Of a stretch of DNA of 64,000 bases, positions 1,845 to 39,128 are shown one piece after another. The translations under genes were made by a program, and so were the position numbers. Under the pieces are notes generated by a model. That model saw only the letters and a program-made list of their open reading frames with translations. It searched no databases and was not told the DNA's origin. Source of the stretch: Ignavibacteriales bacterium (GTDB taxonomy: Bacteria > Bacteroidota > Ignavibacteria > Ignavibacteriales > SURF-24); contig JAPLFH010000006.1 of the NCBI GenBank assembly GCA_026390815.1, forward strand, positions 1-64,000. Direction: 5' to 3'. Each line of letters opens with the position of its first letter. Position 1 is the stretch's first letter.

Positions 1845-1869
1845 TAGTCTTTTAATTTACGGGGTAAAA

Positions 1870-2379
1870 ATGAGTAAAATATTTTTCTTTCTGAGTTTGT
1901 GTGTTATTCTTTTTTCCGGTTGTTCTCACATTTATATTCGAGAAGATTACAGTTCAGATGAATTATTTATCGAAGATATAAACCAGCAGTGTGAGAGACG
2001 AAATGTTCTAATCACTAAAAAGAATAATGAAAAAACTTACGCAACTGAACTAAATGTACAATCAGATACGATTATTTTCAAGACAATAGATGAGAGTAGT
2101 TTTTTAACTAATAAAAGTAGTATCCTACTTCCTTTAAAAGATGTTGAATCCCTAAAGTATAATGATCACTTTGACGGTGGAGTTAAAGGCTTCTGCTTTG
2201 GTTTTCTATCTGGTTCTTTATTGGGTCCGGCTTTTATCAAATATTCTAAAGAAGGAACACCAAGTTTACCAGTGAAAAGTATGATGGTTGGAAGTTTAGT
2301 TGGATGTTTAACAGGTATAATTTTAGGTACGATTATAGGTTGCGAAACAACATTTATTCTTGATATAAATAATAAATGA
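1870..2379 (+). CDS. Small lipoprotein with glycine-rich hydrophobic tail
   Basis: 169 residues. The N-terminus is a lipoprotein signal with lipobox LFSGC near residue 18. A polar middle with several short beta-like stretches follows. The C-terminal third has two glycine-rich hydrophobic segments separated by a short polar loop, similar to glycine-zipper membrane hairpins. The gene follows the dipeptidase gene by 25 bp on the same strand and may be co-transcribed. I do not recognise the family. Confidence 0.65.
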   Translation: MSKIFFFLSLCVILFSGCSHIYIREDYSSDELFIEDINQQCERRNVLITKKNNEKTYATELNVQSDTIIFKTIDESSFLTNKSSILLPLKDVESLKYNDHFDGGVKGFCFGFLSGSLLGPAFIKYSKEGTPSLPVKSMMVGSLVGCLTGIILGTIIGCETTFILDINNK

Positions 2380-2385
2380 GGATTT

Positions 2386-2763
2386 TTTTTCAAAAGCGTA
2401 ATGGTTCTTCCAATTTTATTTTCGGAAGTAGCGAAATTCATTTATAGTACAAAGAACCTAATTTAAATAATGTTACTTAAAATTCAATTTACATTTATCT
2501 CTGAGATTAATGATAAAATGTATACTGGGCAGGTTATCATTTATAAAATAAAACTGCTATTAGGTACTCCAATAAATTGGGTAACAGAAATTAAAAATAT
2601 ATAGGAAAACGAATTTTTTATAGATGAACAAAGGTTTGGTCCGTTAAAGTTCTAGTATTATCTACATCATTTTAGTGCCCTTGATGACGGGGTTGAAATG
2701 ACAGATTTGGTTCTCTATGCGTTGCCGCTTGGTAATATCTATAAAAAAGTTTATTATATATAA
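2386..2763 (+). pseudogene. Decayed SRPBCC-family (ligand-binding START-like) gene
   Basis: One frame (codons in phase with 2401) reads as a degraded SRPBCC protein interrupted by in-frame stops at 2464, 2602, 2653 and 2761. Recognisable pieces in the right order are SEVAKFIYSTKNL (helix after strand 1), IIYKIKLLLGTPINWVTEI, FIDEQRFGPLKF and DDGVEMTDLVLYALPLG. These follow the family pattern of IDYxIKLxGIPxxWxTEI, then FVDEQxxGPYxxW, then DGGTxMTDxVxYxxPxG. Start and C-terminus are lost. It begins directly after the preceding lipoprotein stop. The identification rests on my reading of the family pattern, not on a search. Confidence 0.7.
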
Positions 2764-2888
2764 AGCATTGGCTTTTGAAAAATTTTTGGTTAGTTAACGA
2801 AATTACTAATGAAAAAATACGGTAGAATGTAATCATTATGTTTGTTATGGCGATGGAAATAAAATTTAATTCAATAGGTATTTGAAAA

Positions 2889-4184
2889 ATGGAAATACAA
2901 CTGAAAATTCCTTTTTCTAACCGGTTGATTAAAAAGATAATAATTTCCATTATCATTCTGAATTTAATAATGATGATTGGTACCTACACTTTCTCGGTTT
3001 CATTCCGCTCATTAACAGTTCCCTGGGAGCACTCAAGCCGTTTTTTAAGATACTTTCTGGTTCAGTTTAACCTGGCTACGGAAAATGTTATTGCAAGTTG
3101 GTATTCATCAATGCTGCTCTTATCAGTTTCAATAATATCTATAATTTGTTTTTGGGTAGATAGACAGGAACAAAAACCCGGACGATCACAAATTTTAAGT
3201 TTCGGGTGGCTAATAATTGCCCTAATTTTTGCAGGGTTGTCTTTGGATGAAGTTGGTTCTTTTCACGAAAGATTGGGTCATTTAGCTTCTCTAAATATTT
3301 TTGGTAATTACATCGGTGGTTGGATTTATGTCCTGGTTATCCCAATCGTGGTGGTTGCCATATTTTTACTAATATTTGGTTTAATACACCTAAGAAAATT
3401 TCCCAAAGTTCTCATCTTTTTAATTTTAGGATTAGGCTTTTTTCTTCTCAATCCAATTTTAGAACAAATAGAAATGAATTTGCTTCATGCTGAATCCGGG
3501 ATACTTGACTGGAGAACACACGATTTTAATATTCTGATTGAAGAAGGAATGGAAATATTCGGCTCTTTCATGTTCATTCTAACCGGGATATTCTATGTCT
3601 TATCAATTAAGAAAAGCAAAAATTTAATTTTGGAATTTAGATTTGAAAAAGAAATTGCTAAAAAGATTACAATTGGCTTACTAATTTTATTAACACTTAG
3701 CTTGGGTTTGGCAGATACTTTTATCAATTACTTTCCAATTGGTGATACAGGAATAGCACATAATTGGTTTCCTTCGGCAGCAGCATTTATTGTTTTTATA
3801 TTATCCTTAATTCTTTTCCAAAACTCCAGGCTAAATAATAAAAGAAATAGTTTTGGTTTTCTTTTACTTGGAATTTGCAGCTTATTTTTGTCTGCCTATT
3901 TTGGAGCATATTTATATCCATATTTAGATTGGGATCGATTAGGAGTATTTAGATTTATATCAAAAGGAGTTTTAATAGTTTTTGTGGTAGCTAATAGCAA
4001 TATTTTAATGAAAGAGAAAGTTCAAACAAGCAAATTTTATCTTTCATTATGGATGATATTATTGAGTGTAGGAATAATTTTAGGGCAAATTTATGTTGTA
4101 ATTGCCGGATATACAGGTTTTATTTTTTTACTCTACTACTTAATAATTCACCGGCTAAGTTCTTCAGGAATAAGAACTGAATAA
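2889..4184 (+). CDS. Polytopic membrane protein of unknown function
   Basis: 431 residues, almost entirely hydrophobic, with roughly ten or eleven membrane segments. Two features stand out: SLDEVGSFHERLG at the end of one helix, and EEGMEIFGSF about 100 residues later, so acidic and histidine residues are placed at membrane boundaries. This pattern recurs in uncharacterised bacterial membrane proteins, but I cannot attach a reaction. The gene stands alone between the SRPBCC remnant and secA. A TAnnTTTG box lies at 2837-2844, but I see no matching upstream TTG. Confidence 0.75.
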   Translation: MEIQLKIPFSNRLIKKIIISIIILNLIMMIGTYTFSVSFRSLTVPWEHSSRFLRYFLVQFNLATENVIASWYSSMLLLSVSIISIICFWVDRQEQKPGRSQILSFGWLIIALIFAGLSLDEVGSFHERLGHLASLNIFGNYIGGWIYVLVIPIVVVAIFLLIFGLIHLRKFPKVLIFLILGLGFFLLNPILEQIEMNLLHAESGILDWRTHDFNILIEEGMEIFGSFMFILTGIFYVLSIKKSKNLILEFRFEKEIAKKITIGLLILLTLSLGLADTFINYFPIGDTGIAHNWFPSAAAFIVFILSLILFQNSRLNNKRNSFGFLLLGICSLFLSAYFGAYLYPYLDWDRLGVFRFISKGVLIVFVVANSNILMKEKVQTSKFYLSLWMILLSVGIILGQIYVVIAGYTGFIFLLYYLIIHRLSSSGIRTE

Positions 4185-36097: not shown

Positions 36098-36307
36098 ATG
36101 CTTGCCCTCCGAAAAAAAGAAAAAGTTGTAAATAAAATGATAACAATAGATATTCCCGAAAATTTTGGGAATGAAGTTGAGATTATTATCCTTTCTGACG
36201 CCGATGAAAAAAAGGGAGTGTATTGGAGTGAATCGGAAATTGCTTTAATGGGATCGATTCCATTGCTCGTTAAAGATATTGATAACGAGGATTATTCGGC
36301 ATGGTAA
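36098..36307 (+). CDS. Probable antitoxin of a MazF/PemK-type pair
   Basis: 69 residues. The segment MITIDIPENFGNEVEIIIL, an acidic middle, WSESEIALMG and the final DIDNEDYSAW resemble short antitoxins found directly before MazF-like toxins. The conserved part begins at the internal ATG 36137; the first 13 residues may not be translated. It overlaps the toxin gene by 7 nt. Confidence 0.65.
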   Translation: MLALRKKEKVVNKMITIDIPENFGNEVEIIILSDADEKKGVYWSESEIALMGSIPLLVKDIDNEDYSAW

Positions 36308-36627
36308 GAAAACTTTCCCTCGCTAAAATTTTCTTTACGGACCTCTCGGGCTATAAACTTAGACCGGTTTTACTAATCAAAGAATATAAAGACGAGGATT
36401 TTCTCTACCTGCCATTAACAACTAACCTCGAACTTAAAGGAATTAATATCAATAATGATGATATGGAAAAAGGGACGCTAAAGCATGCCTCTGCAGTTAT
36501 CGTTCCGAAGATTGGTATTCTGCACAAAAAGTTTTTAGTTAAAGAAATTGGTATTGTTAAAAAAGAAATATTTGGCAAGGTAATGAAAGAATTTTGTTCT
36601 CAATTTAACTGCAAAGAGTTTGCATAA
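36301..36627 (+). CDS. MazF/PemK-family toxin
   Basis: 108 residues. FTDLSGYKLRPVLLIKEY at the N-terminus is the PemK/MazF substrate-loop pattern (phospho-binding and RPxLV), followed by FLYLPLTTNLE and SAVIVPKIGILHKK. Such toxins are endoribonucleases. It begins in the end of the antitoxin gene, as is normal for the pairs. The structured RNA at 36.7 kb follows downstream. Confidence 0.82.
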   Translation: MVRKLSLAKIFFTDLSGYKLRPVLLIKEYKDEDFLYLPLTTNLELKGININNDDMEKGTLKHASAVIVPKIGILHKKFLVKEIGIVKKEIFGKVMKEFCSQFNCKEFA

Positions 36628-36700
36628 GCTTGAACTGGAAAGAAATTTATAAATAACAGAGAGAATTGATCGGTTACTAAGTTCTTAAATAATAATTAAA

Positions 36701-36864
36701 CGCAGCTATTGCGTTGTTCTTAACTGAAAACTGGTAATTTTTAAACACACAAGAACAAGCATAGAAGGCTGCGTCCAGAAATGGACGCGCTTTCTTATGT
36801 CTTTGTGTGTAGGCATACCAGTGCCTCAGTTAAGGATGTAATGAAAGTTGCGTCCTTTTTTTTT
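36701..36864 (+). ncRNA. Strongly structured RNA with its own terminator
   Basis: Four nested or adjacent helices can be read directly. P0: 36701-36704 with 36710-36713. P1: 36719-36727 with 36826-36834 (9 bp perfect) continuing as 36730-36735 with 36817-36822 (6 bp perfect). P2 inside P1: 36745-36752 with 36803-36810 (8 bp), then 36760-36763 with 36796-36799, and the apex 36771-36776 with 36783-36788 (GCGTCC/GGACGC, loop AGAAAT). P3 is a 9-bp terminator stem followed by nine T. P1 and P3 share bases 36833-36834. There is no coding frame here. It could be a small RNA or the leader of the secreted-protein gene that starts at 36975. I recognise no known RNA family. Confidence 0.6.
36833..36864 (+). 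terminator. Intrinsic terminator of the structured RNA
   Basis: AGGATGTAA (36833-36841) pairs with TTGCGTCCT (36848-36856) in 9 bp including two G-U pairs; the loop is TGAAAG. Nine T residues (36856-36864) follow. It lies 110 bp before the next gene start, so read-through would be needed if the RNA is a leader. The last base pair competes with helix P1. Confidence 0.85.
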
Positions 36865-36974
36865 ATTTAAAAAGACACGTTCAAAAATTGAAATACATTC
36901 CAACCCGCCGGGATGGTATTAATAAATATTGGCGGGAGAGTAGTAGTAAATCATTCAATAAATGGGAGTTCAAA

Positions 36975-39128
36975 ATGAAAAGGTTACTGTTACAAATAGT
37001 GTTTTTACTTGTCTCTGTTTCTCTTAATGCACAAAATTTTTGGGAACAAACTAATGGACCGTTTGGTGGTACTGTTTCTGCCCTTGCAATAAATAGTAGT
37101 GGAAATATTTTTGCAGGAAGTGCTGGTAATGGAGTATTTCGGTCGGTAGATAATGGTAATAATTGGACTTGGACAGGCTTACCAAATATTCATGTTAATT
37201 TCATTGCAATAAATAATAGTGGGCATATTTTTGCGGGAACTAATGGTAGTGGGGTATTTCGTTCAACAGATAATGGTAATAACTGGACCCCAACAGGCTT
37301 GACAAATAGTTTTACTTATGCCATAGCAATAAATAGTGATGGAGTTATTTTTGCAGGGGCCAATGGAGTAATGCGTTCAACTGATAATGGAAATAGCTGG
37401 ACTCAAACAGGGTTGCCGAATTCAACTATTCTTTCACTTGTAATAAATGGTAGTGGCGATATTTTTGCAGGGAAATCAGTTTCCAATAATAATTATGGAT
37501 CTGGAGGAATATATCGCTCAACCGATAATGGGAATAACTGGAATTTGATGGGCTCTGGAAGAGATTATTTGTCGGATAAAACTGTTTACTCACTTGCGAT
37601 AAATGGTAGTGGTGATATATTTGCGGGAACTGATTATCCTTTTTGGTCATCATCAGCTGCAGTAATTAGTTCAACTGATAATGGGATTACATGGTATCCC
37701 AAAGATACTGGTTTGCCAACAAATACTTTTTTTTCTTCCCTCGCAATAAATAGCAGTGGAGATATTTTTGTCGGAACTACTGAAGGAGTCTTTCGTTCAA
37801 CAGATAAGGGTGTTAAATGGGCTAAAACAGGATTAATAAATAATTGGGCTAAATCTATTGCAATAAATAACAGTGGAAATATTTTTGCAGGGGCTATAGA
37901 TGAAGGCATATTTCGTTCAACGGATAATGGGGATAACTGGGATCAAATAAATAATGGCTTGACAGCTAATGAAGTTACATCCCTTGTAATAAATAATAAC
38001 GGAAATATTTTTGCGTCGGTTTTGTACGGTGGTGTATTTCGTACTACCGATAATGGGAATAACTGGACAAAAATAAATAATGGTTTGATAAATAATGACG
38101 TTGCTCCACTCGCAATAAATAATAGTGGTCATATTTTTGCAGGATCGCAGAGTAGTGGTGTATTTCGTTCAACGGATAATGGGAATAATTGGTCTCAAAT
38201 AAATAATGGTTTGACAAATACTGAGATTCTTTCTCTTGTAATAAATAGTAGTGGCGATATTTTTGCTGGAAACAATGGTGGTGGAGTAGTTCGTTCAACG
38301 GATAATGGGAATAATTGGTCTCAAACGGGATTGACAACTAGAAGTGTTACTTCCCTTGCAATAAAAAGCAACGGATATGTTTTTGCAGGGACTTCTGATG
38401 AAGGAGTATTTCGTTCGATGGATAATGGGAATAATTGGACTAAAAAGATTTCAGGTATGCCAACAAATACTTATGTGTCTTCTTTTGCAATAAATAGTAG
38501 CGGCGATATCTTTGCGGGCACAGGGGCGAGTGGAGTAGTTCGTTCAACAGATAATGGAAATAACTGGACCAAAATAAGTACTGGTTTAGCTAATGAAGTT
38601 CTTTCTCTTGCAATAAATAGTAGTGGACATATTTTTGCAGGAACTTATGGCTATGGGGTATTTCGTTCAACAAATAATGGAACTAATTGGACTAAAATAA
38701 ATGATGGCTTGACAACAAATCATGCTATTTCTCTTGCAATAAATAGTAACGGATATATCTTTGTAGGGACTATCGGCAGCAGTGTGTTCCGTAGTGTAAG
38801 TACAACAACTTCAGTAAAAGATGGTAGAGAAAATATACCAACTAAATTTTTGCTTTCACAAAATTATCCTAATCCATTTAATCCAAGTACAAATATTTCG
38901 TATTCAATTCCCAAAGCAAGCAAAGTCACTTTAAAAATATTTGATATTCTTGGAAAAGAAATTACCACTCTAATTAATGAAGAGAAAACGGCAGGTAATT
39001 ATATTGTTGAATTTGACTCAGCGAAGTTTAATCTTCCAAGCGGCGTATATTTTTACAGGTTAAGTGCAAGGTCACGGGAAGATTCCCAGGTATTTGATAA
39101 AACGGTTAAACTAATTCTTCTTAAATAA
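36975..39128 (+). CDS. T9SS-sorted protein with 13-14 beta-propeller-like repeats
   Basis: About 717 residues from ATG 36975 (MKRLLLQIVF; GGGAG lies 6 nt upstream, while the longer frame from 36888 adds an unlikely charged extension). After the signal peptide (cleaved near NAQN) come 13 to 14 repeats of about 42 residues with core LAINSSGDIFAGT...GVFRSTDNGNNWT, like the BNR/Ycf48 type of beta-propeller or sortilin-like repeat. The final ~85 residues are a T9SS sorting domain (LSQNYPNPFNPSTNISY ... LILLK). It is probably a surface or secreted binding protein; the ligand is unknown. Confidence 0.88.
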   Translation: MKRLLLQIVFLLVSVSLNAQNFWEQTNGPFGGTVSALAINSSGNIFAGSAGNGVFRSVDNGNNWTWTGLPNIHVNFIAINNSGHIFAGTNGSGVFRSTDNGNNWTPTGLTNSFTYAIAINSDGVIFAGANGVMRSTDNGNSWTQTGLPNSTILSLVINGSGDIFAGKSVSNNNYGSGGIYRSTDNGNNWNLMGSGRDYLSDKTVYSLAINGSGDIFAGTDYPFWSSSAAVISSTDNGITWYPKDTGLPTNTFFSSLAINSSGDIFVGTTEGVFRSTDKGVKWAKTGLINNWAKSIAINNSGNIFAGAIDEGIFRSTDNGDNWDQINNGLTANEVTSLVINNNGNIFASVLYGGVFRTTDNGNNWTKINNGLINNDVAPLAINNSGHIFAGSQSSGVFRSTDNGNNWSQINNGLTNTEILSLVINSSGDIFAGNNGGGVVRSTDNGNNWSQTGLTTRSVTSLAIKSNGYVFAGTSDEGVFRSMDNGNNWTKKISGMPTNTYVSSFAINSSGDIFAGTGASGVVRSTDNGNNWTKISTGLANEVLSLAINSSGHIFAGTYGYGVFRSTNNGTNWTKINDGLTTNHAISLAINSNGYIFVGTIGSSVFRSVSTTTSVKDGRENIPTKFLLSQNYPNPFNPSTNISYSIPKASKVTLKIFDILGKEITTLINEEKTAGNYIVEFDSAKFNLPSGVYFYRLSARSREDSQVFDKTVKLILLK

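Follow-up and report, generated by a model that had tools for sequence, protein, structure and literature searches.

The window analysed here, a stretch of 64,000 nucleotides from an Ignavibacteriales bacterium, contains a segment predicted to fold strongly as RNA between a toxin-like gene and a gene for a large secreted protein. The question is what this RNA is, and whether it serves the gene behind it. The RNA fold of positions 36701-36874 has an energy of -68.8 kcal/mol, compared with -36.9 +/- 3.7 kcal/mol in 200 dinucleotide shuffles (z -8.63, 0/200 as good), and the reverse complement reaches a z of -7.28. Beside the shuffle z, the fold goes beyond chance because of the covariation in 35 aligned copies, where both-side changes were found in 37 out of 58 pairs and the covariation score was 0.389, against 0.179 when shuffled (0/500). 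The search against the 4227 families of Rfam 15, including riboswitches, 6S, SRP, tmRNA and T-box, produced no match at the gathering score and none at relaxed thresholds either, and literature searches did not find a description of this RNA family. This is in agreement with an earlier note on the same DNA, which had proposed an undescribed structured RNA.

The genome of the window possesses a single copy of the RNA. With blastn, the RNA was found in twelve out of 59 relatives and in 29 out of 294 members of the class, with 70-90% identity and unrelated flanks. The covariance model R1 detected it in 54 out of the 294 genomes of the class, with one to eight copies each, and in 52 out of 395 genomes sampled from the phylum. 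A spaced DNA pattern derived from the core matched at least 119 stretches in named genomes, where about one is expected by chance according to our estimate, and all the stretches that were fetched and searched with R1 match along their full length. Among the matches listed, most belong to Flavobacteriia and Bacteroidia, with others in Fibrobacter and Lentisphaerae, and the genera named are Bacteroides, Flavobacterium, Chryseobacterium and Fibrobacter. Two loci, L184 (2883 and 3519) and L214 (3035 and 3700), carry two copies within 700 nt on one strand, the weaker copy being near an XRE-like gene. An association with phages was rejected: phage records searched with a Bacteroides copy gave no match, and eight stretches were found among 2.9 million viral contigs. 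The segment is apparently one copy of an undescribed family that is widespread in Bacteroidota.

The conserved span of the RNA corresponds to positions 36699-36864, and its parts are listed in Table 1 together with the neighbouring genes. In 99 homologues, the structure composed of P3, P4, P4', P5, PK1 and P7 has 90.3% of its cells paired and both-side changes in 47/47 pairs, and its covariation score is 0.667, versus 0.221 in shuffles and about 0.1 with slid partners. Alignments A3 and A4 were fitted to R1 and therefore lean to the structure of R1, from which P7, PK1 and P4' are absent; each of these three also crosses other helices. Compensatory changes in homologues, which the earlier note had named as the way to check its fold, were encountered many times over. 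The covariation is overwhelming and supports a predicted pseudoknotted core formed by P3, P4/P4', P5 and PK1.

Table 1. Parts of the RNA and neighbouring genes, in window coordinates.
Feature	Positions	Strand	Evidence or annotation
Upstream neighbour, PemK/MazF-like toxin gene, outside the element	36301..36627	+	Pfam PemK_toxin E 5e-4, under the curated cut-off
P1, 5' hairpin AACGCA-loop-UGCGUU	36699..36715	+	80.5% of cells paired, both-side changes in 4/5 pairs (35 aligned copies)
PK1 5' strand GUUC, pseudoknot partner GAAC 36753-36756	36716..36719	+	92.9% paired in alignment A2
P3 5' strand, partner 36826-36833	36720..36727	+	97.1% paired, up to 65 both-side changes per pair (99 sequences)
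P4 5' strand ACUGGUA, partner 36816-36822, within the near-invariant GAAAACUGG core	36730..36736	+	97.7% paired
P5 5' strand, partner 36803-36810	36745..36752	+	95.8% paired, both-side changes in 8/8 pairs
PK1 3' strand GAAC	36753..36756	+	Same as PK1 5' strand
P6 5' strand, apical hairpin	36759..36776	+	P6 92.2% paired; 0/500 shuffles
P6 3' strand GGACGCGCUUUCUUAUGUC, alternative partner of the tail (P7)	36783..36801	+	P7 duplex -23.1 kcal/mol in the window copy
P5 3' strand	36803..36810	+	Same as P5 5' strand
P4' hairpin GGCA-UACCAG-UGCC, loop contains P4 3' strand (loop-strand pseudoknot)	36812..36825	+	96.3% paired
P3 3' strand	36826..36833	+	Same as P3 5' strand
3' tail GGAUGUAAUGAAAGUUGCGUCC, mimic of P6 5' strand	36834..36855	+	P7 (18 pairs) or, in this lineage, local 8-bp terminator hairpin
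U-tract U9	36856..36864	+	U-rich tract after P7 in nearly all members
Downstream gene, BNR/beta-propeller protein with type IX secretion tail	36975..39128	+	Pfam BNR, Sortilin-Vps10, Por_Secre_tail

Among the helices of the core, P4 has both-side changes in 7/7 pairs of the 99 sequences. In P4', the pairs GGC/GCC, GGU/ACC and GCC/GGC alternate, and the hairpin is 99.7% paired in Bacteroidota. PK1 is 83.8% paired in alignment A4, with both-side changes in 4/4 pairs. The GUUC/GAAC of the window copy has other sequences as counterparts in Bacteroidota, where UCUCG/CGAGA, UCUUG/CAAGA and GUCCC/GGGAC were recognised by eye in raw sequences. In alignment A3, of Bacteroidota, PK1 and the tail are out of register, and both were therefore judged on the raw sequences. 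The core G-AAAACUGG-YA-AUUUUCAA ... GGYA-YRCCAGU-RCC is near-invariant across the family, as are the unpaired core bases GAAAAC and AAUUUUCAA. Since P3 and P5 are similar in length and tied at both ends, they would be packed side by side, a putative arrangement that would bring the tail beside P6.

The outer stem that the earlier note had drawn between the 5' end and the tail is present in the minimum-energy fold yet is not conserved, its native duplex being better than partner-swapped controls in only 52/98 and 35/88 sequences. The 5' end pairs instead with itself in the small hairpin P1, for which two registers were found, and which is GUAAG/CUUAC in loci L044 and L045. The tail resembles the 5' strand of P6, and therefore pairs with the 3' strand of P6 to give P7. 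In the window copy, P7 comprises GGACGC:GCGUCC, CUUUC:GAAAG and UUAUGUC:GAUGUAA. The mean energy of the P7 duplex in the family is -22.9 kcal/mol, versus about -10 kcal/mol with shuffled tails, the native duplex being better in 98/98 and 88/88 cases (186/186); swapped-tail controls gave -14.4 or -17.7 kcal/mol. Both-side changes were found in 18/18 pairs of P7 in the 99 sequences.

P6 and P7 both covary despite their common strand, and are mutually exclusive. The two are similar in stability in Ignavibacteria (P7 -22.9, P6 -22.7 kcal/mol), and P7 is the stronger in 67 out of 88 others. Exclusion together with similar stability would be the mark of a switch, which may act on expression. The proposal of competing helices at a terminator thus holds in so far as the tail bases are common to two helices, while the conserved competitor involves the apical hairpin and not the outer stem.

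A local hairpin, GGAUGUAA/UUGCGUCC, followed by U9, occupies positions 36834-36864. The terminator stem with nine T described previously is therefore present, with 8 bp in place of the 9 bp given. The local hairpin is 80% paired in the Ignavibacteria set and weak in other Bacteroidota, with a mean of -2.5 kcal/mol; loci L104, L124, L133 and L142 have a perfect top of P7 though their local hairpin is broken. An alternative to PK1 is a longer P3, in which GUUC pairs with the first bases of the tail; this extension is 85% paired in A4 and is incompatible with PK1 and with the initial pairs of the tail helices. In addition, two shortened copies from different genomes (L025 5056-5135, L026 4978-5046) are missing all that lies after the P6 5' strand up to where the tail ends, as would result from recombination between these near-identical sequences, and the partner of P7 would be lost in them. 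The universal helix before the U-tract is a long-range strand exchange, P7; this, the two further pseudoknots and the extension of the family across Bacteroidota go beyond what the earlier note had seen.

The position of the RNA relative to genes was scorable in 226 loci. The next ORF is on the strand of the RNA in 206 and on the opposite strand in 20, with ratios of 188:9 for ORFs of at least 100 aa and 151:1 for ORFs of at least 150 aa, and the strand of the upstream ORF is random (106:120). The start codon lies no more than 40 nt after the end of the RNA in 59 out of 198 loci. Of 91 Bacteroidota loci, 79 have a -7 promoter box, TANNTTTG, in the 110 nt that precede the RNA, versus 6.6 expected from shuffling, and two have it in the interval from the RNA to the ORF, versus 8.4 expected. 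A promoter at a fixed distance was invisible in simple column counts, and the box emerges once the distance is allowed to vary. In the Ignavibacteria set the box is only weakly enriched, and consequently no promoter could be assigned to the window copy. With the promoter box of Bacteroidota before the RNA and almost never between RNA and gene, expression of the gene would require RNA polymerase to read through the U-tract.

By its position and its promoter, the RNA has the 5' leader location of a riboswitch. The helices, their mutual exclusion, the leader position and, in Bacteroidota, the promoter position can be read from the sequences, and the family is strongly supported both as a structure and as a leader. 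The earlier suggestion that the RNA is a leader of the gene at 36975 agrees with the strand of the next ORF and with the promoter box of Bacteroidota, and the BNR/beta-propeller gene would be the one controlled in the window. A second inverted repeat, CCCGCC ... GGCGGG, is present at 36904-36937, between the U-tract and the start codon. The transcriptome of Flavobacterium psychrophilum is reported to include 64 structured 5' regions, likely regulatory (PMC9723704), and an unnamed copy of the leader may be among them.

The same data bear on two other readings. The RNA could be an independent small RNA acting in trans, with a promoter and a terminator of its own, the gene behind it being a mere neighbour; the promoter just upstream, the end at a U-tract, the compact conserved fold and the one to eight copies per genome would all fit. 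Such an RNA would nevertheless not account for a bias of 151:1 in the next gene and none in the previous one, and the gene, with no promoter between it and the RNA, would be unexpressed without read-through. We consider this reading improbable. A main function as small RNA, considered in the earlier note, is disfavoured because the downstream gene is nearly always on the same strand and without its own promoter, although the terminated leader could have a second life as a small RNA. A mobile DNA hairpin without RNA function, either a MITE-like element or an integron attC site, would agree with the patchy distribution and with 80-90% identity between different families with unrelated flanks. 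The compensatory changes in crossing helices, the strand bias of the next gene only, the promoter upstream and the U-tract all speak against it, and make it very improbable. A MITE was rejected on strand bias and covariation, and attC was rejected since integron cassettes would put the upstream gene on the same strand too. An RNA of a type III toxin-antitoxin system, for which tandem repeats before a ToxN-type toxin are expected, was also rejected; here a single unit is present and the downstream genes are unrelated.

The RNA is therefore best described, on the analysis of its sequence, as probably a cis-acting transcription-attenuating leader of a new family. Transcription would begin upstream of the RNA, and the 5' part would fold into the pseudoknotted core, in which P3 and P5 are joined by a junction, the loop of P4' pairs with an upstream strand (P4), PK1 ties the outer ends of P3 and P5, and P6 caps P5. 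The tail, a copy of the P6 5' strand, would then take the place of that strand opposite the P6 3' strand, and the resulting P7, a stable helix abutting the U-tract, would end transcription before the gene. If P6 is held, the core being stabilised by a ligand or protein, RNA polymerase would read into the gene, and the same would follow if the tail is captured otherwise, for example by the extension of P3. The state with P6 would accordingly be the ON state, with a signal presumably setting the balance. In this lineage, the local tail hairpin would offer a second route to termination. Against this reading, an intrinsic terminator is normally a local hairpin; P7 forms a pseudoknot with the P3-P5 stem, and termination by such a helix is assumed.

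The genes behind the leader encode SusC-type TonB receptors, ECF sigma factors, RibD_C reductases, response regulators, thioredoxins, DNA methyltransferases, BNR/WD40 proteins and lipoproteins. Searches with Pfam and PADLOC found no common function or pathway among them. The targets of a riboswitch usually share a pathway, though they need not; the diversity is unusual for a metabolite riboswitch, and it counts against an attenuating leader. In 97 out of 184 pairs of RNAs that are at least 85% identical, the proteins encoded behind the two RNAs are unrelated, from which we conclude that the RNA is kept apart from the gene. In Bacteroidales loci L254, L292 and L293, the leader and a dihydrofolate-reductase-family (RibD_C) gene are located between primase/helicase and topoisomerase III genes, in conjugative-type elements with RteC according to the annotated neighbours, and L254 has a match to the rteR sRNA near the leader. 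At least 25 flavobacterial copies of the leader have a divergent XRE/RstR-like repressor gene back to back with them, mostly 110-230 nt upstream of the RNA; L177, L241, L244, L188, L219, L227 and about 20 others are examples from Flavobacteriia.

What sets read-through in the attenuating leader may be a small molecule. As a strict riboswitch, the core of P3, P4, P4', P5 and PK1 would bind a metabolite or second messenger and hold P6 against the tail. The conserved core is aptamer-like and covaries, its unpaired bases GAAAAC and AAUUUUCAA are near-invariant, and the junction is tight with two pseudoknots; strand exchange also resembles that of the ZTP and fluoride transcriptional riboswitches (PMC10085676, PMC11077080). 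The lack of a common function downstream argues against it, as does the conservation of the platform (P7 and U-tract) along with the core, whereas riboswitch platforms usually vary. A strict riboswitch is a plausible possibility that we hold somewhat short of even.

Several known systems are comparable. The ZTP (pfl) and fluoride riboswitches (PMC10085676, PMC11077080) set a pseudoknotted leader core against a strand-displacement terminator before a U-tract; here, in contrast, the tail copies a whole strand of the apical hairpin, the helix is long-range, the genes are diverse and Rfam gives no match. The HMP-PP (thiS) riboswitch, with an aptamer embedded in the terminator, is similar in that its terminator strand belongs integrally to the folded unit and is conserved with it (PMC6478431), but the present RNA has no Rfam match, a core with PK1, P4/P4' and P7, and no thiamin genes downstream. 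Among c-di-GMP (GEMM) riboswitches, one class of leader precedes very diverse genes, with several copies per genome. The present family shares the diverse genes and the multiple copies, but it differs in size and core and had no match in the Rfam scans.

Read-through of the leader could also be set by a trans-acting protein or RNA, such as an antiterminator, an RNA-binding protein or a guide RNA, and unrelated genes under one leader would fit such a regulon. The loci that bear on this are seven flavobacterial ones (L255, L148, L205, L217, L239, L241 and L256), in which the leader is 5' of an ECF sigma gene and dCas12f. In L255 the operon region is 1855-4023, and its protein matches PDB 9n9c, a nuclease-deactivated Cas12f, over the full length with 541 bits. 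Conserved gRNA-like scaffolds ending in AUACAAC are present 3' of dCas12f. Guides could be read in five loci, and in four of these one guide finds its best match anywhere in the locus (12-16 nt) in the leader's P6 3' strand, in sense: 12/12 in L255, 14/16 in L205, 11/12 in L217 and 14/16 in L256. The leader variant GUGUGGG of L205 is present in its guide too, and in L239, the fifth locus, the guide match is ambiguous. SigmaE-dCas12f systems use a 5'-G motif, and their transcription starts at a fixed spacing from the target; the base preceding the guide match is G in three of the four loci.

Against a trans-acting factor of this kind, neither dCas12f nor any other Cas12f/TnpB-type protein was found in the genome of the window, where the leader must therefore work without dCas12f, and the P6 3' strand has no further copy there at up to three mismatches. 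In nine Ignavibacteria genomes, no convincing trans-acting copy of the strand was found outside leaders. Control by a trans-acting factor is a rather unlikely, though tangible, option. The leader itself as the gRNA of dCas12f was rejected, since the scaffold is a separate sequence after dCas12f and the genome of the window lacks dCas12f. The seven leaders before such operons and the four guides matching the apical strand are the likeness to the 9n9c family; as differences, leader and gRNA are separate sequences, and in most leader loci no such system is seen.

Tentatively, and with more doubt than confidence, we propose that a promiscuous leader gates accessory genes of Bacteroidota, and that in flavobacteria it is also a built-in target of sigmaE-dCas12f. 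SigmaE-dCas12f would bind, by way of its gRNA, the DNA of the P6 3' strand, transcription would start further downstream, and the transcript, without the first half of the attenuator, would not form P7. One guide would in this way switch on all leader-bearing genes of the genome, including its own operon.

A large, complex and well-supported family of regulatory RNAs has apparently been overlooked in a phylum that is among the best sampled, gut Bacteroides included. Its design, a terminator that would be made by swapping a whole hairpin strand, is testable. The leader may also help to explain which genes sigmaE-dCas12f systems address, and offers a direct link of leader RNAs to CRISPR-derived transcription factors.
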